Shown here piece after piece: positions 2,913 to 64,000 of a stretch of DNA of 64,000 nt (the stretch's first letter is position 1; every line of letters starts with the position of its first letter). The position numbers and the translations under genes are program-made. This DNA comes from Paramacrobiotus metropolitanus (taxonomy: Eukaryota; Tardigrada; Eutardigrada; Parachela; Macrobiotidae). The notes below the pieces were generated by a model. It had not been told where the DNA came from. It worked only from the letters and a program-made list of their open reading frames with translations, and ran no database searches. The DNA lies in contig NW_026570266.1 of the NCBI RefSeq assembly GCF_019649055.1, forward strand, positions 558,001 to 622,000, given 5' to 3'.

Positions 2913-3570
2913 ATGCAAAGAAACCCTCGCAAAACATCCATACTCTTTTCCCTGATACTCGTGGCAGTCTTGCCCAGAAAAACGTTCAGCTTGGATGATC
3001 CCTTTGCTCGACCAGAAGGTGAGGTGCTATAACATTTTCTTACAGAGTAAATTGCTCTAATAACTCAGAAACTAGAGTAAAAACGTCATAACTGAAACAG
3101 ATTAACCATCGTTTTTATTAGGCGGTTTTCTTTGCAAAAGTTGTAGTACAGAGTACTGACTGCTATTATTAACGAAGTAGTCTCCGTAATTATTGTACTC
3201 TTTGTAGTCTTGCTGCTTGTTGAGCGAGGAAGATGCAAAGACATACCGGAAGTGCGATAAAATCGACTGTCATGCTGAACAGACAACGGCTCTTTCCCCT
3301 GCTACCACGAAAGCTTTCCCGGATAAGCAGGCGCAGTGGGTTGATGCCGTTACGAAAACGTCCACTACAGTAGTCTCAAAATCGCGGAAACGTAAGGCTC
3401 GTTTCCCGACAACGACAACGGTGCCCACGAACACTACTGTGCCGACGTTAACACTGATAGTCCCTGTGGTCCTTCGTGGTATAATCCCAGGCAGTCAACT
3501 GCCTCCCGGCCGGTATCGTGCCAATGTTACTCTGTTTATTGATATCGACACTAGCCAATCAGCCGACTAA
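2913..3570 (+). CDS. Family A small secreted protein, copy 1
   Basis: Function unknown. Exon 1 (2913-3018) encodes a signal peptide starting MQRNPRKTSILF and ends at a gtgagg donor in phase 1. Exon 2 most likely starts at 3233 (aag|AT), which restores the frame and gives DAKTYRKC, matching the same motif in copies 2 and 3. The protein is about 147 aa, with two close cysteines, a Thr/Val-rich middle and a C-terminal YRANVTLFID stretch shared with copy 3. The acceptor at 3233 has a poor polypyrimidine tract. The tag at 3207, equivalent to the one copy 2 uses, would break the frame here, so the exon border is the weak point. An AATAAA lies at 3699. The 5' flank (acagacacggaagta near 2735) is repeated before copy 2. 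Confidence 0.55.
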
Positions 3571-3698
3571 ATTTGTCCTTATTTTTGCCTTGATCTGGTT
3601 TCTAAGAGGAGAAGTACTTTATTGGTATACACCGAGCATCACCTGGTGTCACCATCTCTTTCAAGTCATGACGAAACTCTGTGCCGAATCTGCCGATC

Positions 3699-3704
3699 AA
3701 TAAA
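3699..3704 (+). terminator. Polyadenylation signal AATAAA
   Basis: An AATAAA hexamer lies about 130 bases after the stop of family A copy 1 on the same strand. Confidence 0.5.
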
Positions 3705-4019
3705 GTACAGCGACGAAATATCTACCTACTGTAGCTAGCAAAGCAGCTTTTCAAAATCGATGATCGGTTTATTATTATATATTCAGTATCGTGCATTACA
3801 CGAAGACATTCGACAGTGATGTGGCACTCGTTACCATCTCGTCGACCTTCGAAAACCAAATCGCAAGAATAATAGTAAGAAAATTCGCCAAGTGCCTGAT
3901 ATGTTATATATTTAGCGAATTTACACGAAACTGACTGACTGCATGAAAGTCTTTTCATGGTTGACCAATAGAAGTTTTTGGCGTAGACTACAACTTACTC
4001 AAATATTTTGTACGGTACC

Positions 4020-53754: not shown

Positions 53755-54378
53755 TTCTAATGGTAGATCCAGGATGGATCCACAGACGGAGACAGAAACG
53801 GAATCTATCCCGTGGAGTGAGCGACACGATCTGGGTCGCGAGCTATGCGGAAACACAAAACGTCGCACCGTAATCGCTGACTTTTAATAATGTTGAAAGT
53901 CTGGAGAACAGAAATCAACAAGTGATCGGCGCAGCTCGATCGTAAAACGTGGAGCCTATTCAACAGTGTGTAACACTGTGCAGCACGTGCTATGCCGCGC
54001 CCACTAACAGAACACAAGCCAATCAGAAGCGAGACACAACACAGACCGTAATCCAAAGGCGTAGCGCCTAGCGCCACGGGCGTGAACGCTAGTGAAGCCT
54101 CGTCTCACATGCCTCTGGGGGGATGCCGAGCTCCTGTGAGGCTGGACACACTCCCGAATCCACGAAAAGACGGTCGCCGGTGTCTGTGTGCTCGAAAACA
54201 TCAAATTCTCTTATTCCATTTATCATATCACATCAATTCCATAAGGCACAATTCCATTTAACACGATGTGAATAAAGAGATCCAATTACAAAAATACTAT
54301 CATAAAACAGATCAACAGTTATAAGATCAACAAAAGTATTAATCAAATGTAGACTAGGATCCTCCATTTCTGACTCGT

Positions 54379-54863
54379 AAAGGTCACAGGTCCTGTCCAC
54401 CGTTTTCTGCACTTTGGCCCATTCCGCTCTGTTGAGCAATCCTGCGCATCCGTAATGCGACTTCATCACAATCCGCTTGAGAATCAGGTGCGTATCAAGT
54501 ACGACTTAGGAATACTGCTTCATCTTTGGAATATGGTGCGTATCAATTGTACGACTTCAAAATGAGATCCATAAAGGTCATGGAGGACGTCATGTAGACA
54601 AGCGTAGTTCGCTTCCTCCCTGGTAAAGGTCATCCCATATGAAGATGATCCGTTGAGATGTGCGACACGTTCGGGTTAATGGTCCCAAAAGGTCATGCGA
54701 CTTGGTTTTCGATGCGGTGACTCTGTTGGGCGGTAATGATCCCAAAGGTCATCCAACTCTTCAAAACTTCCATTAAAGGTCATGGAGGAACTTAGCCAAT
54801 TTTCTGCGGCTTTCAAGCACTTCGTTGCTTGCCTCCCTGGTAAGACTTTTCGGTTTGACCTTT
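54379..54863. repeat. Left arm of AAAGGTCA-rich block, with short hairpins
   Basis: Six plus-strand AAAGGTCA octamers start at 54379, 54573, 54625, 54688, 54744 and 54775. The first minus-strand copy appears at 54856. Two short hairpins, AAGCG/CGCTT at 54600-54614 and AAGCA/TGCTT at 54815-54830, are each followed by cctccctggtaa, with a compensating pair change. A tandem gaat..ggtgcgtatcaa unit lies at 54480 and 54532. No ORF is convincing here. Confidence 0.6.
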
Positions 54864-54900
54864 GCGTCGCACATCCAACTTCAACATGCCTCGAACGGCC

Positions 54901-55351
54901 AGAGTGCCGGCAAGTTTACCGTAGCATCTCCGATGGGGCCGGCTGGTTACCGCATTGAGTTTACCCCATGAAATTTCCACATTTAATCTTTAGCTCTTGT
55001 TCGCCGCTTGTGGCTAGTATTATTACGAGAAATCCGGCTCGATTACCGTAGTTTTTCTCGTTTCAATTGTAATACTGAATCGCTTAAGGAGAGTGCCGGC
55101 ACAGTTTTACCGTAACAACTCTAATGAGGCCGGCTGGTTGCCGCATTAAGTTAACTTCATCAGTATTCCACCTGTTGTCTTTCTCTTTTTCACCGCTTGT
55201 GGCCCCGTTTCGTATTCAAGAGATCCGGCTTGATTACCGTAGTTTCTCTTGTGCATTTATAACACTGAGTCGCTTAGAGGGGAGAGCCGGCTAACTGCCG
55301 TAGCAACTCCCTTGGGGCCGGCTTTATAAACCGAATCAAATTCAACCCCAA
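54901..55351. repeat. Array of eight covarying hairpins with CCGGC...ACCG loops
   Basis: Two and a half tandem units of about 190 bases contain hairpins at 54901-54929, 54931-54957, 55026-55060, 55090-55122, 55122-55148, 55217-55251, 55280-55311 and 55312-55351. Each loop carries CCGGC and, 4-9 bases later, ACCG or GCCG, which can form an inner CGG/CCG stem. Outer stems differ in sequence but stay paired: CGAGAAA/TTTCTCG becomes CAAGAGA/TCTCTTG; AGAGT/ACTCT corresponds to GGGAG/CTCCC; CGATG/CATTG to TAATG/CATTA. Such compensatory change suggests selection on RNA or single-strand structure. It lies just downstream of the minus-strand ORF cluster, as a 3' untranslated or replication element might. 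Confidence 0.7.
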
Positions 55352-55536
55352 TAGGATTCCACATGATTTCTTTAGGCAATTCTGTGCTATAAACGCTGCA
55401 AACAACAAATACACAAATACAGTTAATATTAATATGTCACATGTCGCGCCCTTTATACAACACCATTTTCATCTTTGTGACGTACCGACAAAGTGCCGTA
55501 GACGTCCTTTTAATAGTGTGATCCTAACGATCAGCA

Positions 55537-56202
55537 CTATTCCATTTCATTTGAATCGCCCTCGCCATCTCTTGGTGGACGCTTCTTAGCGCTTTCGGGT
55601 TGATTACGATCAGATGTCCGGTCAATTGGTTCCGTTGAATCAACTTCCATGACCTTTGCCGGGTCAACTTCGCGCTGGCCACGACCTTTCCCTTGGCGGC
55701 TTCGCTTGACTCTCTCAAGTTGGTGCCGTGCGTCGTTCTCCTCTAACCGCAGTCTCCGGTTATTAGGGTCAGCTGCCAGTCGCCGTTGTACGTCAGCGAG
55801 ATTATCTCGGAGTTGCTGGTTCCGTATACCGCGTCGTCCCATCTGGTTAGGAGCACGTTCTGGACGACGGTCGCTTTTCTTCACCAGGAATTCATCGATG
55901 TAGGTTTCGATGCCGTCCACCGGTTCAACATAGTCGCTTCCTAGAGAATCTTTGATCTTATTGATCCTTTCTTCGACTTGGGATGCATGACGCTGTGTCA
56001 AATTGCCCTTTTCCATCCGTGTCTTACACTTCTTCAGCGCCTTTCGAGCTGTGTGCGCTATGCTGATATGTTCCATTGGTTGTCCCAATTTAGCGACATG
56101 AGCTCGGAAAAATGGTGGAATGTCATCTCTCATGGTATTAGATACCAATTGGTTCTGCGTCTTATAATGCGCCAGTCTCGCAGCGAAGACCTTTTGCCCC
56201 AT
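55537..56202 (-). CDS. Cluster ORF 5: 221-aa helical basic protein
   Basis: Not recognised. The predicted product is charged and largely helical, with an internal coiled-coil-like stretch (NQQLRDNLADVQRRLAADP) and a basic, glycine-rich KGRGQRE segment near the C-terminus, suggesting nucleic-acid or protein-scaffold binding. Its ATG overlaps the end of the preceding ORF by 73 nt in another frame. The upstream ORF's last residues look out of character compared with this frame, so the two may be one protein reached by frameshifting or split by an indel. It lies closest to the hairpin array and is the last gene of the cluster. Confidence 0.55.
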   Translation of the reverse strand: MGQKVFAARLAHYKTQNQLVSNTMRDDIPPFFRAHVAKLGQPMEHISIAHTARKALKKCKTRMEKGNLTQRHASQVEERINKIKDSLGSDYVEPVDGIETYIDEFLVKKSDRRPERAPNQMGRRGIRNQQLRDNLADVQRRLAADPNNRRLRLEENDARHQLERVKRSRQGKGRGQREVDPAKVMEVDSTEPIDRTSDRNQPESAKKRPPRDGEGDSNEME

Positions 56203-56951
56203 TCTTTTGCGGCATAATCTGTAGGATCCACTTGTAATCCTATCGATGCTCTGGCTGCGAGCAACTTAAAGGCTGGATTCACATGTCGTAAAACAAACTG
56301 AGCCACGTATTCTTGTCGTTCGGGATAATCTGCGTAGTAGAATTGTGTCATCCCGATTGGGTCAGTTGTATCCAGCGGTACATCCAATAAACTCAAATCC
56401 ACCAAACTGTGTAGCCCATTCCGTCGGATAGGGAGATAACAGTCCCTTACCGAATCGCGGTGGATAAATAATCGACGGAAAGTTCCTTGTTCCACTCCCT
56501 GTTTAATCTCTCTCGCATAACCCGAGTCGAGTAAGAATTGGCTCAACTGTCTCAGAATTGTGCTGATTTTGTTGGCTTCAACCGAGTCCGATTCGAGTCC
56601 AAAGTATCGACAAATTTCGACCGTTTGCTCATCAATATCAGTCGTATTGTATTCCATATCGATGGTATCCGGTTGTCGGTTATCGAATCTGGAGTTCTGT
56701 CGCTGATCAGCCTGTTGACGATTATCCGGTTCACGTTGACCTTCTAGTTCACGTCGCTCTCCTGACTCAGGCTGCGACGGTTCATTACTCGCCGGTGTAG
56801 CCGGTTGAAGGTCACTATCCAAAATCACATTTCGTCGATGGGTCACGTTTTCTTGAGATGCGGTTTCCATAACTGAACTAGTCCCTTCCATCGCATCGTC
56901 CTCTTGTACGACACTCACAATTGGATCCACTACGTGAACCATTGACTCCAC
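56130..56951 (-). CDS. Cluster ORF 4: 273-aa protein
   Basis: Not recognised. The first 110 residues are acidic, Gln/Asn-rich and probably disordered. From about 110 on it looks folded, with helices around ICRYFGLES, ILRQLSQFLLDSG and a hydrophobic LVDLSLLDVPLD stretch. The ATG overlaps the end of the previous ORF by 22 nt, a tight coupling that is unusual for animal nuclear genes. No introns are needed. Confidence 0.55.
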   Translation of the reverse strand: MESMVHVVDPIVSVVQEDDAMEGTSSVMETASQENVTHRRNVILDSDLQPATPASNEPSQPESGERRELEGQREPDNRQQADQRQNSRFDNRQPDTIDMEYNTTDIDEQTVEICRYFGLESDSVEANKISTILRQLSQFLLDSGYAREIKQGVEQGTFRRLFIHRDSVRDCYLPIRRNGLHSLVDLSLLDVPLDTTDPIGMTQFYYADYPERQEYVAQFVLRHVNPAFKLLAARASIGLQVDPTDYAAKEWGKRSSLRDWRIIRRRTNWYLIP

Positions 56952-58273
56952 CCGCTGATACTTTGGGGTGAATCTTCCCGCTCTGCGCTTGATGACCTTT
57001 TGCTTGCACCCGAGTCAAAGGTCGCATAAAATGCAGCTCTCTGTTGCCAACTTTTATCCTGTGGGTCGGGCGTTCGATTCCGCGTGTGTTCGCGTCTTTT
57101 ATCCCATGACCTTTCAGGTGTTGACATTCTGACATTGCGATTCCGGAATGCAACTCCCATCGGCACCTGATGCCCTTGCTTTTCAGGTTCTGTACGGAAT
57201 GTCTCCGCACGCCGTTTTTCTTCACGTCCTCTCGTCGCCGCCAAAATCTTCGCCGTATCGATTTTCCTTTGAATACTCATTTCTGTAACTTCGTCTCCAT
57301 GGCGCACCCATCCTCTTCCGCCGCGGTAATCTCTATCGCGAGAACGTTCGCGTGACCTTTCGTTGCGGTAGTCACGTGTTCTTTCACGAGAGTGTTCGCG
57401 TGACCTTTCTCTCTGTCGTTCAGAAGTCCGCTCATGTTCTCGTGAATGTCCGCGTGACCTTTCTCTATGCGGAGGCGACCGTGGTCGTATGAAGCCTTCG
57501 TCCCGTTTGAAGCTTCTGAGTGCTTGCAGCACATCGCTTTCGGTTCGGCGAGATTTACGTAATTCATCCATACGTCTTTCCACTTCCTTCTTTATGTATG
57601 GTGCCGGCGCGAACCCGTCTTGCAGTCGTTTCTTCTCCCGCAACAGCGTTTTGAATAACTCGTCTGGCATAGCAGCTGGATCTTTCGTTAACGTTTCGAT
57701 TTGTATGATGAGGGACTGACGTGTCAGCTGCACTTCTTCTTCGTTTAGGCTGGCTGTGGGTCCGGTTGAACTCGACGTACTGGGCAACCCCTCTCGTGCA
57801 GCCTGTTCACTTGCTCTCTTATTTTCCGCATTAATCTTCGCGCGGATTTCGTCTTCCATCTGCTGAGCTCGCATCTTCGCTTGGTCTTCTTCGAACTTCT
57901 TCCGATATGCGTCTGTTTGTGGACATTTCAACGGCTCCAAGGTGTCATCCCAACCAGGTTCATTGTTCCGGATCGCTTCTCGATAACGATCTTCGAATAG
58001 CATTCGCTCTTCTACTGGGATGCTGCCGTAGTTTCTTGCGCTTATGAGATTTCGAAAAACGTCCAAGTTCCCACGTTTGGCTTCCGAGACCCCAACGAGT
58101 GAAACCATATGCGGGTCATCCAGCTTGTGAATACAAGTGTAGCAAGGAAATTTCTTATCAACCTTTTTGTTGTTCCTTCAGCAGTCCGGACACTTTGAAT
58201 TATAGCCCGTAAACTGATCGATGTCTGCCGCCATTCCCGAACGTTTAGGAGTGGCTTGACCTTTTTGTGCCAT
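56930..58273 (-). CDS. Cluster ORF 3: RS-rich protein with N-terminal zinc-ribbon-like motif and in-frame TGA
   Basis: The frame opens with ATG at 58273, just after a good acceptor-like tttataattgcag. It reads 31 codons ending CPDC, then TGA at 58180-58178. The same frame continues with FPCYTC and runs without further stops to 56930; the first ATG after the TGA is at 58108 (392 aa). The two CxxC pairs straddling the TGA form a typical zinc-ribbon spacing. Residues about 205-270 of the 392-aa part are RS/ER repeats (RERSREHSRER), as in splicing factors, preceded by a long Lys/Glu-rich helix. Either the 392-aa ORF is translated alone, the TGA is read through, or the copy is mutated. Confidence 0.6.
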
Positions 58274-58613
58274 CTTTCTTCTTCAATCTGCAATTATAAA
58301 ACAATCCGTCATATTAACCTCTCCACGTTAATCCTTTCCATTCCTATCCGTTATCAAGGCTTTCTATCATTTTTACGCCTATTCCGTTACTGAGCTGAGA
58401 CTTTCCTAGCTCCTGCTGCCTTTTCTATCACTGTAACGTGGTGACCTTTCTCACGTTATCAGCGCTCTCTGACTACTGTGACCTTTTCTATTAGTCCTAG
58501 TACTGCTTTCAGGTGACCTTTCATAACACTTTTTCTCTTTCGTTTTAAACTATTTTATGCTTTTTCTGTAATATGCAGGGTTCATTACTCGCTGCATATT
58601 ACAATCGATTAGT

Positions 58614-61600
58614 TCATTCGGATTCTTTCGTCGGTGGTTTATACGGCTTGAAATCAATTCGGCCATCTGGATTAATATGGGGCACGTTTTCTGCGATCAG
58701 GGCTTCGACGGCATTCTTAATCCACTCCTTATCGCTTTCCATGTTCAGCTCTCCCAATTCATAAGTGACGGCCATGAAGTTCGAAAGGTCATTCCGTGAC
58801 GCTCCATTGGTACCACCGATGGCGTCCAAGGCCACGTCTGTGATGGCTATCTTCCAGGCCTCCAGTTCCATTTTCAGTCTGGGTGTTCGTTCCTGACCCT
58901 GTTTCGGAAGGTAGTAGACAACTTTGTTGTCCTTGTTGTACTTACATCCCAGCTTTCCTTCTTTATATGCTCGTTTCAAGGCTCGTTCGGTCATATTAAG
59001 TGACGACCTTCCATTCGTATTCATTGCCACTTGTCTTTTCAGGTCTGTACCAAGCATTTCTTTTTCTCGAATGATCTGGAGCGCAGCCTGGACTTCGTTC
59101 CATGTACGATTATTCACGTCCAATGCTGGTCCTAGCGTGTAATCTGTAGCCTCCTTTGCTGGTGTACCGCTACTTTTCTGGGAGGATGCCGAGTCCGTTG
59201 GGTCAGCTGTCGCTGTTTCGTCAATCCTCAGCTTTGCCAATGATCCTGATGATGACCCCGCTGATTTTGGTTCGGTTATCTTCTTCTCCTCTTGCGGCAA
59301 AGTCTCTTGACCTTTTAGATCGCCAGCCGACTTCGATCGTTCCTTCTCAAAGGCCTCCTTTAATGGTATGAACAGTGATTTGTGAAACACCTGTCGCGCC
59401 GAATACGCTACAGCTTCTGCCGCTGCCTTATCCATCGGGAGCATGACCTTTTCTTTCTCCCGTTTGTCTGAAGTCTCATGACCTTTCGGTTGAACTTCTG
59501 CGGTAGTTCCAGATGTCTTTTGACCTTTCGACTGTTCGTCTTTTTCTGTCGCAGGTCCAGAAGGAGCCGTTATTGTAGTATCGTCATCACTTCCCGATTC
59601 CGAGTCCATTGGTCCTTTTTTTCTCGACACTTTCGGGGCTTGTGATTTCAGCCTCGCCGCTTCTTCTTCGGCCGTTTTCTGTGCAATCTGATTCAATATC
59701 GGAGTTGACGGGTCTCCGCTTAATGGAACTATGACCTTTTCCATATCCTGACTGTCAGACATATGACAGTGGATCTGCCTCTCCGGTGGTATCAAACCAA
59801 CTCTCGTGTATCGAATTGGGTGGCCTTTATTTGCGTTTGTTGTAGAAAGGACATTCTGTTTAATCAGTCTCGGCAGTACACGCTCAGTTGCCGTATCGAT
59901 TTCTTTTATCATTCCGTTTCCATCGTTCCAAACTGCGTTGATGTATTGGCTGATCCGGTGACTCGTTGACCCTAACGGGCTTGTCATCCCTGCGATTGCC
60001 CTTTCTACTCGCATTGGGACGGCTTCGTTCGGAGTTGTCAACGCTTTATCCGAACTGGCTGGTCTGAACAACTTGGCCTCATACGAAAAACTCGGGTGCT
60101 TCTGGATAAGTTTTCCTGCGTTCCGCGCGAATTCCAATACGACGTCGAACTTTTGTTTAGTGAAGCTACGACGCTGTTTCTTCAAATATGTCTTCAGGCC
60201 CGCTTTGAATTTCGATGTCACCGATGCTGTTCTTATCCGTGTGAAATTTTTCTCCGCTCCGTTATACGCGTTAATGATTTCATCGACCGTGGTCAAGTTA
60301 TCATTATCTGGACCGTCAAATTCTTCATCCGAGGTGAAGTCCAGCTCGCTCTCTCCATCTGGTTCAGTATAATTAACCAGCGCCAATGCATCGATTTTCG
60401 TAACTGTCTTGCCCTTTCCTTTGGTCTTAACGGGTTCGCTCTTTGCTTTTTTTCCTTTGTCCAGGGCCTCCGCTAGGCTTCTTGGTTCTGTGGTCCTTGA
60501 CCGGGTTGTCTTCGAATCCGTATGTGACCTCGCACTGACCGTCGAAGTGCTTGGGAGGCTCACTTCCGATGCTTCTGATTCACGGGACGTCTCCCGCTTC
60601 ACTTTTTCACGAATTTGTTTATCCTTGCGCTCTTTTGGCGTGGATGCCGAAATAACAATGGGGATAACTTGTTTCACCGCTATGACCTTTCCTTTGGGTT
60701 TTGGCGAGTCAGGCTCAGTGACCTTTGATGTAGCCGACTGGATAACTTTCCTTGAAGTTGTAGGTGTCGACGACCTTTCTTGAGCCTCACCAACTGATTC
60801 GTCCAGTATCTCAACATCATGAGGCGCTGGTTCATCTTTTTTCTTTAACCCTTCCTTTTTCTTCTTCCCGGTGCTTGTGCTATCGCTTTCATCACCGCTC
60901 TTTTTCTTCTTATCTTCTTCTTCCCTTCGTTTTTTCAGGAAATCACCTTTCTTAACCGTTTTTTCGCGGTTCATAGCTTCTTCCAATTTGGGTGCATCCC
61001 TCGGCTTGGCTTTTGAGGGCTTTACTTTTGAGGGCTTTTTATGCTTGTCGGCCTTTTCTTCGTCTGAGCCTTCTTCTTCCTCAGCTGAGTCCTCATCTTC
61101 CGACTCTGGTTCATCGTCACCGGGTGGATTACAATGGGCACAGTTAGGTTCATCACACTGAAGGTGATCATGACTTCCTTGGGCGATCTCAAGTACTCTT
61201 TGTAATGAACGTCTGGCGCCTCCAATTTCTTCGACTTCTGTGACTGGAGTCCCTTCCATTTCTCCGGCTCCACCTTCCTGTGCCGGGGGCTGAATTTCCA
61301 AATGCGCTGTCTCTTTCAGCTGTCCCTGTGAAGCGACCTCCCACAAAGGGTTCTTCTTAGCGTCGTAAAATACCGTTTTGTACGATCCGTCTTCCATTCG
61401 TCTTGTGAGTCGGAAATGTGCTTCGTCGATCTCCGCTCGATGCCGCATCATGCTGATCAGTGTGCTCGCTTGAACCACGGCATCTGTTCGGTCACTTTCA
61501 GGTATCAGATCCCATAGCTGCTCAATGGCTGCCTGATTCGCATTTCGTTCGCTCTCTTCTGATACATCCCATGGGGCATACGGAATCGGATCTCCTGTTA

Positions 61601-63614
61601 CTGGGTCAACTATCACTGCCGTAATAGTCTCCACTACTTCTCCGTTGCCGGCGAAAAGTCTGAGGGTAACCTTTCTGCTTGTCGCCTCTGTATATCTTGG
61701 GATCGACTCATAATCATCTGACGATCGTTTCTTAGGGTCTGGATCCGCCGTCGGTTTTGAGCGAGTTCTCTCTTTGGTCAACAATTTGCCATCCGTTGTG
61801 TATGTATATGCCAAGTGGTCCTCATTTGTGCCCACTTTAATACGGATCCATGCATCTTCTTCAGTCGCAACTTTAGATACCACGTGTTTCAGCATCTGAA
61901 TGAGAACTCTTGGGTTGTGACGTTCTTCTGGGGGAATAAATTGTAGCGCCTCGTTGACTACCGTTTTTGACTCTTCCCCAATGGCATCCTTAACTGACCT
62001 ATCCGCGAGGGGATTATACGAGTCGATCTCTTTATTCGTTTTCTTATCGACTATACGTGCCGTAACCTTTCGTTCCTTATGGTCTTCCCCAGTGTACTTG
62101 GCCGTGAAACTTCTACACTTCGGGAATCGAATCTGACCTCCTGTTCCAGCCGGTGTGGGTGGCGCACTCTTTCTACCCACTGGGAATGGGCCTTGTGGCT
62201 TTGCCGGCTCAGCTGGTGTTGCTTTACCTGACGTGGCCTTCTTCGTTCGCTGCCCTTTCTTGTCAGTTTCTTTTGGGCTTATCGTCGGTGATCGTACTCT
62301 TTTTCCACTTTTCGCTGTCCCGCTAGACGGTTCCGTAACCGAACTGGTCCGTCCTCGTGTTGATCCTGCAGTCGAGCTGGCCCGTGATCTTTCTGCTCGT
62401 TCAGTTAACTCGGCATCAATCTTTCTCTTTGTTGCCAACAGGTCCTCATCCGTCATTTCATCGACCGGGGCGTCCCTTTCCGCTATTGGTTTGGATGGTC
62501 CCGCGACGCTGGTAGTCGGCGTCTGTCTTGTTTCTGGGAACACCTTGAGATATCTAAGGATCTTTTCGACAGTCTCCGGCCACCTTCTACCTTTTATTGT
62601 CGGATGGTATTGCCACATCGATGCAACTTGGATTGCGTATTCCTTGCGCTTTGCTTCAACCTGTTTCGTCTTGTCTTTCATGGCAATGTGGCATGGTTTG
62701 ATAACAGCTTCCAAGCTGATTAACTTTCCATACCATGCGTGTTCGTCTTCAACTCGCATGTGGATTCTATAAAGGTCACGGCATTTCCGATTGAAGTCGC
62801 GAATGGCTTCTAAGTCGGCTTCCGTCAGTTTTTCCTTTTTATCCACTATTAAATTCAGGTTCGGGTCATCATCTCTCAAATCCAACGGAAGCTTCGGTGC
62901 GTATTCATGTATTGAAGGTTCACCTGGGGGCGTAAGCCGTAAACCATCTGGTCCAGTCTGATCCAAATTGGGACCCAGTGACGGTAAGATACCTCTCGGT
63001 CGCCTTCCTCCTCTGTGTGGCGAATTACGATGAGGGCGCTGCGCTCCAAGTTGCTGCGGTGTTCTCATGCGAGGCGCTCCGATGTCTGACAGTGACAAGC
63101 CTCCCGTCTCCGGAAAAGGCGGTAATATCGGAGATGACCTTTGTGACTGTACCGGAGTCGCTAGCATTCCGCCGAATCCTCCGTGTCCCGTAAATCGGCT
63201 CGGTGTAGTCTGTTGTGGTGGCGGCATCAACATTCTTGCCGGTCCCATTATCACCTGTGAGGGTCCCGCTGGTGGGGTATACGATCCCGGATACGGTTGA
63301 TAGGGAGCGCCCGTTGCTTGTCCCGGGTACTGGGTTCCGGCAGGTGAGCCGTGGTGCACCCAGTTAACCGTGTCCTGATAATTCGTCTGCTGTCCTGGAT
63401 CGTGATACACGTAATACCCTGGACTGCCGTAGTAGCCTCCTTGAACTGTTCCGGGTTCATTCTGGGCCGTTCCCACTGACGACGTCGACCCTTCACCGTA
63501 TGAGGTATCGTAACCATATTCCCCTTCCATTCTTATTGGTGTCGATGTCTTTAGTGGGTTTCCAATTATTTCCGAATCGGAATTATCGGAATTTTGCCGT
63601 CCCAATCTTTTCAT
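58614..63614 (-). CDS. Cluster ORF 2: 1666-aa protein with internal domain repeat
   Basis: Not recognised as a whole. The order is: Gly/Tyr/Pro-rich disordered N-terminus (1-250), a helical segment (about 255-375), a Ser/Thr/Lys-rich linker, two copies of a domain of about 110 residues (roughly 510-625 and 640-765; each has an (A)xIVDxxTxxxI start, an IPxxxR middle and a final strand pair), a CxxxxCxxC cluster near 820, a long acidic then lysine-rich tract (830-1000), another helical domain (about 1125-1300), a charged linker and a C-terminal region (about 1510-1650). The end (GASRNDLSNFM, WIKNAVEALIAENV, DGRIDF) resembles a linker-histone-like winged helix. It is a 5-kb single exon, unlike the intron-rich EML gene. 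Nuclear or DNA/RNA-associated function is only inferred. Confidence 0.7.
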   Translation of the reverse strand: MKRLGRQNSDNSDSEIIGNPLKTSTPIRMEGEYGYDTSYGEGSTSSVGTAQNEPGTVQGGYYGSPGYYVYHDPGQQTNYQDTVNWVHHGSPAGTQYPGQATGAPYQPYPGSYTPPAGPSQVIMGPARMLMPPPQQTTPSRFTGHGGFGGMLATPVQSQRSSPILPPFPETGGLSLSDIGAPRMRTPQQLGAQRPHRNSPHRGGRRPRGILPSLGPNLDQTGPDGLRLTPPGEPSIHEYAPKLPLDLRDDDPNLNLIVDKKEKLTEADLEAIRDFNRKCRDLYRIHMRVEDEHAWYGKLISLEAVIKPCHIAMKDKTKQVEAKRKEYAIQVASMWQYHPTIKGRRWPETVEKILRYLKVFPETRQTPTTSVAGPSKPIAERDAPVDEMTDEDLLATKRKIDAELTERAERSRASSTAGSTRGRTSSVTEPSSGTAKSGKRVRSPTISPKETDKKGQRTKKATSGKATPAEPAKPQGPFPVGRKSAPPTPAGTGGQIRFPKCRSFTAKYTGEDHKERKVTARIVDKKTNKEIDSYNPLADRSVKDAIGEESKTVVNEALQFIPPEERHNPRVLIQMLKHVVSKVATEEDAWIRIKVGTNEDHLAYTYTTDGKLLTKERTRSKPTADPDPKKRSSDDYESIPRYTEATSRKVTLRLFAGNGEVVETITAVIVDPVTGDPIPYAPWDVSEESERNANQAAIEQLWDLIPESDRTDAVVQASTLISMMRHRAEIDEAHFRLTRRMEDGSYKTVFYDAKKNPLWEVASQGQLKETAHLEIQPPAQEGGAGEMEGTPVTEVEEIGGARRSLQRVLEIAQGSHDHLQCDEPNCAHCNPPGDDEPESEDEDSAEEEEGSDEEKADKHKKPSKVKPSKAKPRDAPKLEEAMNREKTVKKGDFLKKRREEEDKKKKSGDESDSTSTGKKKKEGLKKKDEPAPHDVEILDESVGEAQERSSTPTTSRKVIQSATSKVTEPDSPKPKGKVIAVKQVIPIVISASTPKERKDKQIREKVKRETSRESEASEVSLPSTSTVSARSHTDSKTTRSRTTEPRSLAEALDKGKKAKSEPVKTKGKGKTVTKIDALALVNYTEPDGESELDFTSDEEFDGPDNDNLTTVDEIINAYNGAEKNFTRIRTASVTSKFKAGLKTYLKKQRRSFTKQKFDVVLEFARNAGKLIQKHPSFSYEAKLFRPASSDKALTTPNEAVPMRVERAIAGMTSPLGSTSHRISQYINAVWNDGNGMIKEIDTATERVLPRLIKQNVLSTTNANKGHPIRYTRVGLIPPERQIHCHMSDSQDMEKVIVPLSGDPSTPILNQIAQKTAEEEAARLKSQAPKVSRKKGPMDSESGSDDDTTITAPSGPATEKDEQSKGQKTSGTTAEVQPKGHETSDKREKEKVMLPMDKAAAEAVAYSARQVFHKSLFIPLKEAFEKERSKSAGDLKGQETLPQEEKKITEPKSAGSSSGSLAKLRIDETATADPTDSASSQKSSGTPAKEATDYTLGPALDVNNRTWNEVQAALQIIREKEMLGTDLKRQVAMNTNGRSSLNMTERALKRAYKEGKLGCKYNKDNKVVYYLPKQGQERTPRLKMELEAWKIAITDVALDAIGGTNGASRNDLSNFMAVTYELGELNMESDKEWIKNAVEALIAENVPHINPDGRIDFKPYKPPTKESE

Positions 63615-63742
63615 TAACTGTGCTTACCTTCTATAAAGTGAAACAATAAAGGTTAACTTTTTGCACGGTGATGACCTTTCTTTTACACCTTCCCAACTCC
63701 TATTTTTATTGCCGAAAATTTCCTTAATCATATTTATGTGGG

Positions 63743-64000
63743 TTATTTGTTTTCGCGTCCTTTAGTTATCCGATCAAGAAGTTCTTTTTCGGCTGCATCC
63801 TCAGGTTCGCCTTTCTGTGTTAACAGTTCCGTAGGAGTTGGTTTCTTCTTCCTCTGTTTGACCTTTCGCTCATTGATTGCTTTCGCTATATCGCGGCCCA
63901 ATTGTTCAGCTTTTGATTTGACCGCCTCTATTTCCTCTTTCCGCTTTTCTATGAGGTCATTCTCATTGCCGGTAGCAGCACGTGGTTCGAAAAAATTCGG
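63743..64000 (-). CDS. Cluster ORF 1: C-terminal part, runs off the window
   Basis: An open frame of 86 codons from the window edge to TAA at 63743-63745, with no start inside the window. The residues are strongly charged and helical (DLIEKRKEEIEAV, INERKVKQRKKK). It ends 128 bases before the ATG of the 1666-aa ORF, and an AAAGGTCA octamer lies in that gap. The spacing and composition match the rest of the cluster. Confidence 0.55.
   Translation of the reverse strand, partial: PNFFEPRAATGNENDLIEKRKEEIEAVKSKAEQLGRDIAKAINERKVKQRKKKPTPTELLTQKGEPEDAAEKELLDRITKGRENK

Follow-up and report, generated by a model that had tools for sequence, protein, structure and literature searches.

Why does one octamer, AAAGGTCA, recur so densely in the last 10 kb of the DNA analysed here (a stretch of 64 kb, called the window), and why does its orientation turn over at about 54.8 kb? 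Between 54856 and 63866 the original prediction had counted 21 copies on the minus strand and two on the plus strand, and at 54379-54782 six on the plus strand and none on the minus strand. An exact recount agrees with these numbers, except that one of the two plus copies, placed at 58774, starts at 58784. The first 53.7 kb of the window, where about one copy had been noticed, hold four (21429, 37764, 40801 and 42506). Altogether there are 33 octamers in the window compared with 2.66 expected from 100 dinucleotide shuffles, the largest of which gave 10.

The octamers lie in a long LTR retrotransposon

The octamer-bearing DNA is a 24.8-kb LTR retrotransposon of the Ty3/gypsy type, as judged by gene order and Pfam matches only. 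What had been described as a 10-kb gene cluster is octamer-saturated as claimed, but it is the 3′ 10 kb of this element (the C46 copy), which carries reversed octamer arrays at both of its non-coding ends and whose 5′ LTR lies 14.2 kb past the right end of the window. The coding strand is the minus strand, and the features are as follows.

53756..54109, minus strand: 3′ LTR, a 354-bp direct repeat 100% identical to C46:636216-636569 in the same direction
54110..55536, minus strand: 3′ non-coding region of the element, between the last ORF and the LTR
54379, 54573, 54625, 54688, 54744 and 54775 (54379..54782), plus strand: six antisense octamers, exact match
54901..55323, no strand: 191-bp tandem array of 2.2 copies (Tandem Repeats Finder) inside the 3′ non-coding region, the putative hairpin array of the original prediction
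55537..56202, minus strand: accessory open reading frame of 221 aa
56130..56951, minus strand: accessory frame of 273 aa
56930..58108, minus strand: accessory frame of 392 aa with an RS-rich stretch
58109..58613, minus strand: non-coding inter-ORF gap with four sense octamers (58257, 58442, 58479, 58514)
58614..63614, minus strand: accessory ORF of 1666 aa with a predicted winged-helix domain at about aa 1501-1572
54856..63866, minus strand: 21 sense octamers (AAAGGTCAH), exact match
58784..58791, plus strand: antisense octamer within the 1666-aa ORF, exact match
62771..62778, plus strand: antisense octamer within the 1666-aa ORF, exact match
63743..64000, minus strand: C-terminal end of the pol frame
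C46:622001-636569, beyond the window, minus strand: integrase, RNase H, RT, protease and gag-like frame
C46:634.8-635.3 kb (L006:2792-3329): leader array of 13 plus-strand octamers, none on the minus strand
L005 4942-8109 and L005 1-2574, minus strand: regions of IPVPEAxG and FFEPRSA-like repeats

Five pol domains are all over the Pfam cut-off (RVP 22.7, RVT_1 91.8, RT_RNaseH 95.8, Integrase_H2C2 72.4 and rve 46.6 bits) and stand in the order protease, RT, RNase H, integrase. The gag-like frame has no Pfam match, and we infer from its position that it is gag. Likewise no match over the Pfam cut-off was obtained with the accessory ORFs of 1666, 392, 273 and 221 aa. The sequence TGGTAGCAGAGCCGACAG, a putative primer-binding site, directly adjoins the 5′ LTR of the C46 copy, and CTGT is found at both outer flanks of the element as a short target-site duplication. 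Since its LTRs are 100% identical, the C46 insertion should be recent; the LTRs of the C9 and C37 copies are 99% identical each. A search with the RT detected at least 124 copies of 81-100% amino-acid identity in the genome, a lower bound with 1,582 candidates flagged and 124 scored. The scored copies are spread over many contigs, which rules out an assembly artefact.

Gag, pol and the accessory region of the C46 copy are split into overlapping frames (L005 2312-2574, L006 2362-2761 and window 55537-58108). In the C1 copy the accessory region is a single 776-aa frame, which by eye matches the 221-, 273- and 392-aa frames, and some other copies have open frames of about 3,000 aa or more around the RT. 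The peptides IPVPEAxG (encoded by GTACCAGAGGCA) and FFEPRSA-like repeats recur through the polyprotein of the C46 and C1 copies and are possibly cleavage or spacer motifs. Between about aa 495 and 790 of the 1666-aa protein two tandem copies of an unassigned domain (CRSFTAKY..., TSRKVTLRLF...) can be made out by eye, with counterparts in the C44 and C1 copies. Nothing useful came from comparing the four window proteins with phage families, from Rfam over the window, from a tRNA scan at seven loci or from an IMG/VR search with the RT, and three units of the telomere word TTAGGC gave no match.

Abundance and sharpness of the word

The C46 element contains 99 exact octamers, 66 sense and 33 antisense, for which a second-order model predicts 1.7 and 0.3, respectively. 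The other copies (23.5-24.4 kb) contain 90 (C9), 101 (C1) and 91 (C37), so that the density in the elements is about 4 per kb or one octamer per ~250 bp. The sites cover the leader, gag, pol, the accessory genes and the 3′ UTR. The word is sharply delimited: each octamer with one mismatch occurs 0-5 times in sense and 0-3 times in antisense orientation in the C46 element, which is background.

The original prediction had argued for a nucleic-acid signal and had proposed codon-preserving shuffles as null model. In the C46 frames of at least 150 codons 200 synonymous shuffles gave 5.2 sense and 0.34 antisense octamers (maxima 13 and 4) compared with 61 and 13 seen, and the sense sites are distributed over the codon phases 0/1/2 as 12/24/25. 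Chance or composition is ruled out by the dinucleotide and codon-preserving nulls, and a peptide repeat by the use of the three codon phases; the signal is indeed one of the nucleic acid.

Of the bases flanking the octamer the next base alone is constrained alike in both orientations. In pooled counts from four copies and three extra 4.5-kb RT regions it is G at 6 of 308 sense and 0 of 127 antisense sites, compared with a background after TCA of 24% and 20%, and C is commonest. The full word is therefore AAAGGTCAH, and because the rule against G holds in both orientations the word appears to be read on double-stranded DNA. In the whole genome of 170 Mb AAAGGTCAH occurs 38,538 times compared with 13,110 for the reversed word, a rough control, that is an about threefold excess, so the octamer is not equally dense genome-wide. 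However, AAAGGTCAG is found 4,045 times genome-wide versus 2,430 for its equally rough reversed control, which counts against a strict rule.

Strand polarity

Strand polarity had been taken as the essence of the signal. In the ORFs (frames of at least 150 codons) of four copies we find 238 sense and 52 antisense sites, that is 4.6:1, whereas the codon composition outside the sites predicts 9.2:1. Antisense sites are rarer in ORFs because one phase of TGACCTTT introduces a stop and the two others are possible only where the protein has Thr-Phe or Asp-Leu. The ORF polarity, being weaker than predicted from coding, needs no strand-specific signal, and the sense bias would be a by-product of coding constraint. 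In the C46 copy the word stands at 61 of 86 sense-compatible and 13 of 15 antisense-compatible amino-acid positions, figures which are descriptive, as an occupied position is compatible by definition.

In non-coding DNA, unlike in the ORFs, the polarity is real. Every octamer of the 5′ leader arrays is reversed (13:0 in C46, 9:0 in C9 and 8:0 in C1), the 3′ UTR is mostly reversed (six reversed and one sense in C46, five and one in C9) with reversed clusters of five or six in the C9 and C1 copies, and the inter-ORF gap has sense copies only (4:0 in C46). The ORF counts leave out two C46 sites in frames below 150 codons, at window 63859 (the pol end) and at L006:2558; the latter lies in a 111-aa frame resembling the N-terminus of gag and is not among the 13 leader sites. 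As both non-coding ends carry reversed arrays, the flip at about 54.8 kb, which is present as predicted, corresponds to the border between ORF and 3′ UTR. The second flip suspected beyond 64 kb is found in the 5′ leader. The spacings in the leader are often near 30 bp with related spacers, and the reversed end arrays probably grew by tandem duplication of units of about 30 bp.

Conservation and spacing of the sites

The word is selectively maintained in the element. The C46 and C9 copies can be aligned over 23.6 kb with 83.5% identity, and 52 of 66 sense and 25 of 33 antisense octamers of C46 are kept in C9 (50 and 25 by a stricter column count), compared with 28% of all 8-mers and likewise 28% of 8-mers of the same composition. 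The identity per position steps up at the edges of the octamer, from 0.73-0.87 in its surroundings to 0.88-0.93 within it. Between C46 and C37 51 of 63 sense and 28 of 32 antisense octamers are kept versus 45% of 8-mers, and between C46 and C1, where 6.2 kb are alignable at 75% identity, 16 of 23 versus 11.6%. Most octamers of C46 and C1 lie outside alignable DNA, yet the density is equal, so sites were probably gained as well.

Across the element the word has no fixed spacing. Gaps shorter than 20 bp number 0, 0, 3 and 0 in C46, C9, C1 and C37, compared with 5.9, 4.4, 6.2 and 5.3 after jittering; taken alone the C1 copy is not significant (0.13), and as the copies are related the tests are not independent. 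This footprint-like avoidance of short gaps is as expected of a bound protein.

Copies without the word

Pieces of 2.3 kb from the RT region of 20 sampled copies were used for a tree with midpoint rooting and without outgroup. Ten copies have 3-7 octamers in the RT region and nine have none (five copies) or one (four copies). The nine octamer-poor copies group together with a split support of 0.995, and with this rooting their clade lies within the octamer-bearing ones. The C244 copy (64% identity, no octamers) falls in neither group, and the copy at C7:60.5 kb, with 20 octamers in 4.5 kb, was left out because its start motif was unmatched. Three of nine RT-region octamer columns are common to the C46 and C1 groups, and most simply the word is therefore ancestral and was lost once, although rooting on the octamer-free clade may reverse the loss to a gain. 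Given that a nested clade with long frames dropped the word in the same host, the word is dispensable for propagation as such.

The C44 copy agrees with the others in gene order and its open frames are long, but 23.3 kb of pieces from it contain no octamer, one at L046:9201 being left out as near or beyond the expected 5′ end. Its LTRs were not found in the fetched stretch, which probably stops short of the 3′ end. None of the 45 alignable C46 octamers is kept in C44 compared with 8.7% of 8-mers, from which about four would be expected by decay. This is suggestive only of an active purging of the word rather than decay. Within C44:714501-738800 (L046, L035, L047) GAGCTGAG is weakly over-represented (10 versus 0.9 expected) and could be a degenerate replacement word; a search for such a replacement gave only weak k-mers, none comparable to the octamer. 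The identity of the accessory proteins is uninformative here, as the word is present in C1 with 29% identity and absent from C44 with 39%.

A candidate reader in the host and the word outside the element

The octamer AAAGGTCA is the NR4A response element (NBRE), to which an NR4A-type receptor binds as a monomer (PMC4777543, PMC6912296). The match to an NR4A-type monomer site, already pointed out in the original prediction, is the best one, and in the host genome three exons (C45:296815-296901, 297502-297648 and 298350-298439) encode an intact DNA-binding domain of NR4A. Judging from sequence, the nuclear-receptor set of the host looks ecdysozoan-like. This domain carries the P-box CEGCKG and the A-box RTDSLKGRRGRLP; the query sequence and both motifs are those that we take to be diagnostic of NR4A. 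CAAGGTCAH, the type of site bound by FTZ-F1, ERR and NR6A, is not enriched genome-wide (5,211 versus 6,541 for the control), which disfavours a reader of that type.

Over the first 844 kb of C1 the matches listed for the plus strand comprise 100 AAAGGTCAH, of which 76 fall in DNA other than the element at 202-219 kb. The window shuffles predict about 21 octamers per Mb and strand, and the excess on C1 may include other repeats. Two paralogous host frames with 81% DNA identity keep five of five octamers.

L016 (C1:274001-279000) 3400-3715: first host paralogue
L018 (C1:330001-333000) 1774-2080: second host paralogue

In these paralogues, which judging from their sequence likely encode a small secreted protein, three octamers (TATATAAAGGTCACC) lie at most 120 bp before the predicted start in a TATA-rich region and two lie in frame, one of them within the signal-peptide frame. 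In another stretch of C1 (L017, 299001-309000) 16 octamers are found in 10 kb of non-element DNA, surrounding a GPCR-like exon and two Ly6-like paralogous frames (named by eye), both of which have one octamer just past the stop codon. These loci (L016-L018, and also L023) were selected because they contain octamers, so they do not represent the genome at random. Of two 10-kb stretches picked blindly, L024 has none and L025 one, and the octamer excess in ordinary host DNA is small or nil.

What reads the word

We favour, at just short of an even chance, the reading that AAAGGTCAH is the binding word of a sequence-specific double-stranded DNA-binding factor, most likely the host NR4A, and is kept for expression or chromatin access. 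An NR4A-type receptor of the host, the predicted reader, would bind the nonamer along the whole body of the element, its DNA-binding domain being expected to prefer AAAGGTCAC over AAAGGTCAG and over sites with one mismatch. In cells expressing NR4A such body-wide binding could hold the chromatin of the 25-kb element open for transcription. Alternatively the many spaced sites could mark the cDNA of the element, which fits better than chromatin opening because the C46 LTR, the only LTR checked, contains no octamer. Several findings speak against the receptor: the LTR is the place where a promoter would be expected, a promoter factor alone leaves the sites across 20 kb of ORFs unexplained, and a reader blind to orientation does not require leader arrays which are all reversed. 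NR4A sites are, moreover, less sharp than the word of the element, and the loss in a nested clade and the small or absent excess in ordinary host DNA count against the receptor as well. A self-identity code, with one double-stranded word about every 250 bp serving the import, compaction, protection or recognition of cDNA or provirus and switched off in one clade, is possible though rather doubtful; its reader could be NR4A acting as a carrier or the winged-helix protein of the element.

That the element itself encodes the reader, for instance the 1666-aa winged-helix protein, which would coat or compact its own long cDNA or provirus, we consider unlikely. The proposed roles are self-recognition, nuclear import, an integration complex or anti-silencing, and the word-free clade would have changed its reader. 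Such a change on the side of the element simply explains the loss in a nested clade, and it suits a word which is digital in sharpness and covers the whole element and not a promoter; yet C1 has an excess of the word beyond the giant element as well, and the two host paralogues conserve it. The modelled winged-helix part (AlphaFold2 pLDDT 67-79) has the helix-strand order typical of the fold and appears to resemble the DNA-bound winged-helix domains of KAT6A and SAMD1 (VIA-align, Z 9.1 each). The best structural matches, however, include cullin winged-helix domains (Z up to 9.7), which are not known to bind DNA, the mean pLDDT of the whole structure models is low (43.6 and 46.7), and the core KRAYKEGK is also present in the octamer-free C44 copy. 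Foldseek found no match to the predicted structure at E ≤ 0.001. A signal at the RNA level, in which the sense AAAGGUCA of the ORFs either pairs with UGACCUUU of the leader and 3′ UTR or recruits Gag or an RNA-binding protein of the host so that the 25-kb RNA is packaged or exported, would account for the complement of the ORF word in leader and 3′ UTR and for the sense copies in the inter-ORF gap. We regard it as improbable, and an oriented packaging or RNA signal, which the original prediction had put on a par with a receptor site, is disfavoured: G is avoided after the word in both orientations, which pairing does not predict and which a protein binding single strands would be unable to enforce on the complement, G-U-compatible variants do not rise above background, the ORF polarity stays below the prediction from coding alone and 13 of the 74 ORF sites in C46 are antisense. 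Finally, the word might bring no benefit and owe its spread to gene conversion, slippage or targeted editing. The leader and 3′ UTR arrays do resemble degenerate tandem repeats, with the leader spacings often about 30 bp, but the ORF sites stand in three codon phases without common flanks except for the next base and the octamer has diverged far less than its flanks, so that such a by-product is very improbable.

Comparison with known systems

Transposons carry transcription-factor sites, usually a few and in control regions. Here a whole 25-kb element including its coding sequence is shaped around one exact 9-bp word selected at about 95 places. A survey of titles and of the beginnings of abstracts, to which most subscription papers did not contribute, yielded no such pattern for transposable elements.

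Burro of planarians and Ogre of plants are likewise gypsy-like elements of great length which contain additional coding regions; Burro exceeds 30 kb and has LTRs, and the LTRs of Ogre measure 1.9-6.5 kb (PMC6431247). At 24.8 kb the present element is shorter than Burro, and its LTRs of 354 bp are shorter than those of Ogre; Burro and Ogre as described there come without mention of a dispersed recognition word (PMC6431247). The Gag CCHC knuckles, env-like region and apoptosis or ubiquitin domains of the Burro type were not detected over the Pfam cut-off in the scanned frames of the element. How so long an animal retrotransposon stays transcribable or moves its cDNA despite silencing becomes testable with the present finding, and the genome supplies its own control in sister elements from which the word is absent or nearly so although the gene order is unchanged.

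NBRE sites have been described in promoters and distal enhancers of target genes (PMC4777543, PMC6912296). The octamer of the element is exactly the same and the host has the NR4A DNA-binding domain; the element differs in having about 95 sites over 25 kb, including the ORFs, and none in the LTR checked. It could thereby serve as a natural assay for the action of an NR4A receptor where its sites blanket a locus. The PATCs of C. elegans, periodic An/Tn clusters which are dispersed in non-coding DNA and can prevent the silencing of transgenes (PMC7725773), are likewise a dispersed DNA feature, but they consist of periodic A/T runs, whereas the word of the element is an exact 9-mer which lies in exons too and has no fixed spacing.

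The DNA uptake sequences of Neisseria and the Pasteurellaceae number hundreds to thousands, and within reading frames one orientation is the more frequent (PMC2346458). A short repeated word with an orientation bias in frames is what they have in common with the present element, a resemblance of pattern only: uptake sequences belong to whole bacterial genomes and to competence, whereas here the word belongs to one animal retrotransposon family for which no uptake process is known. If the word were indeed a self-identity code, it would be a eukaryotic counterpart of the bacterial DNA uptake sequences.
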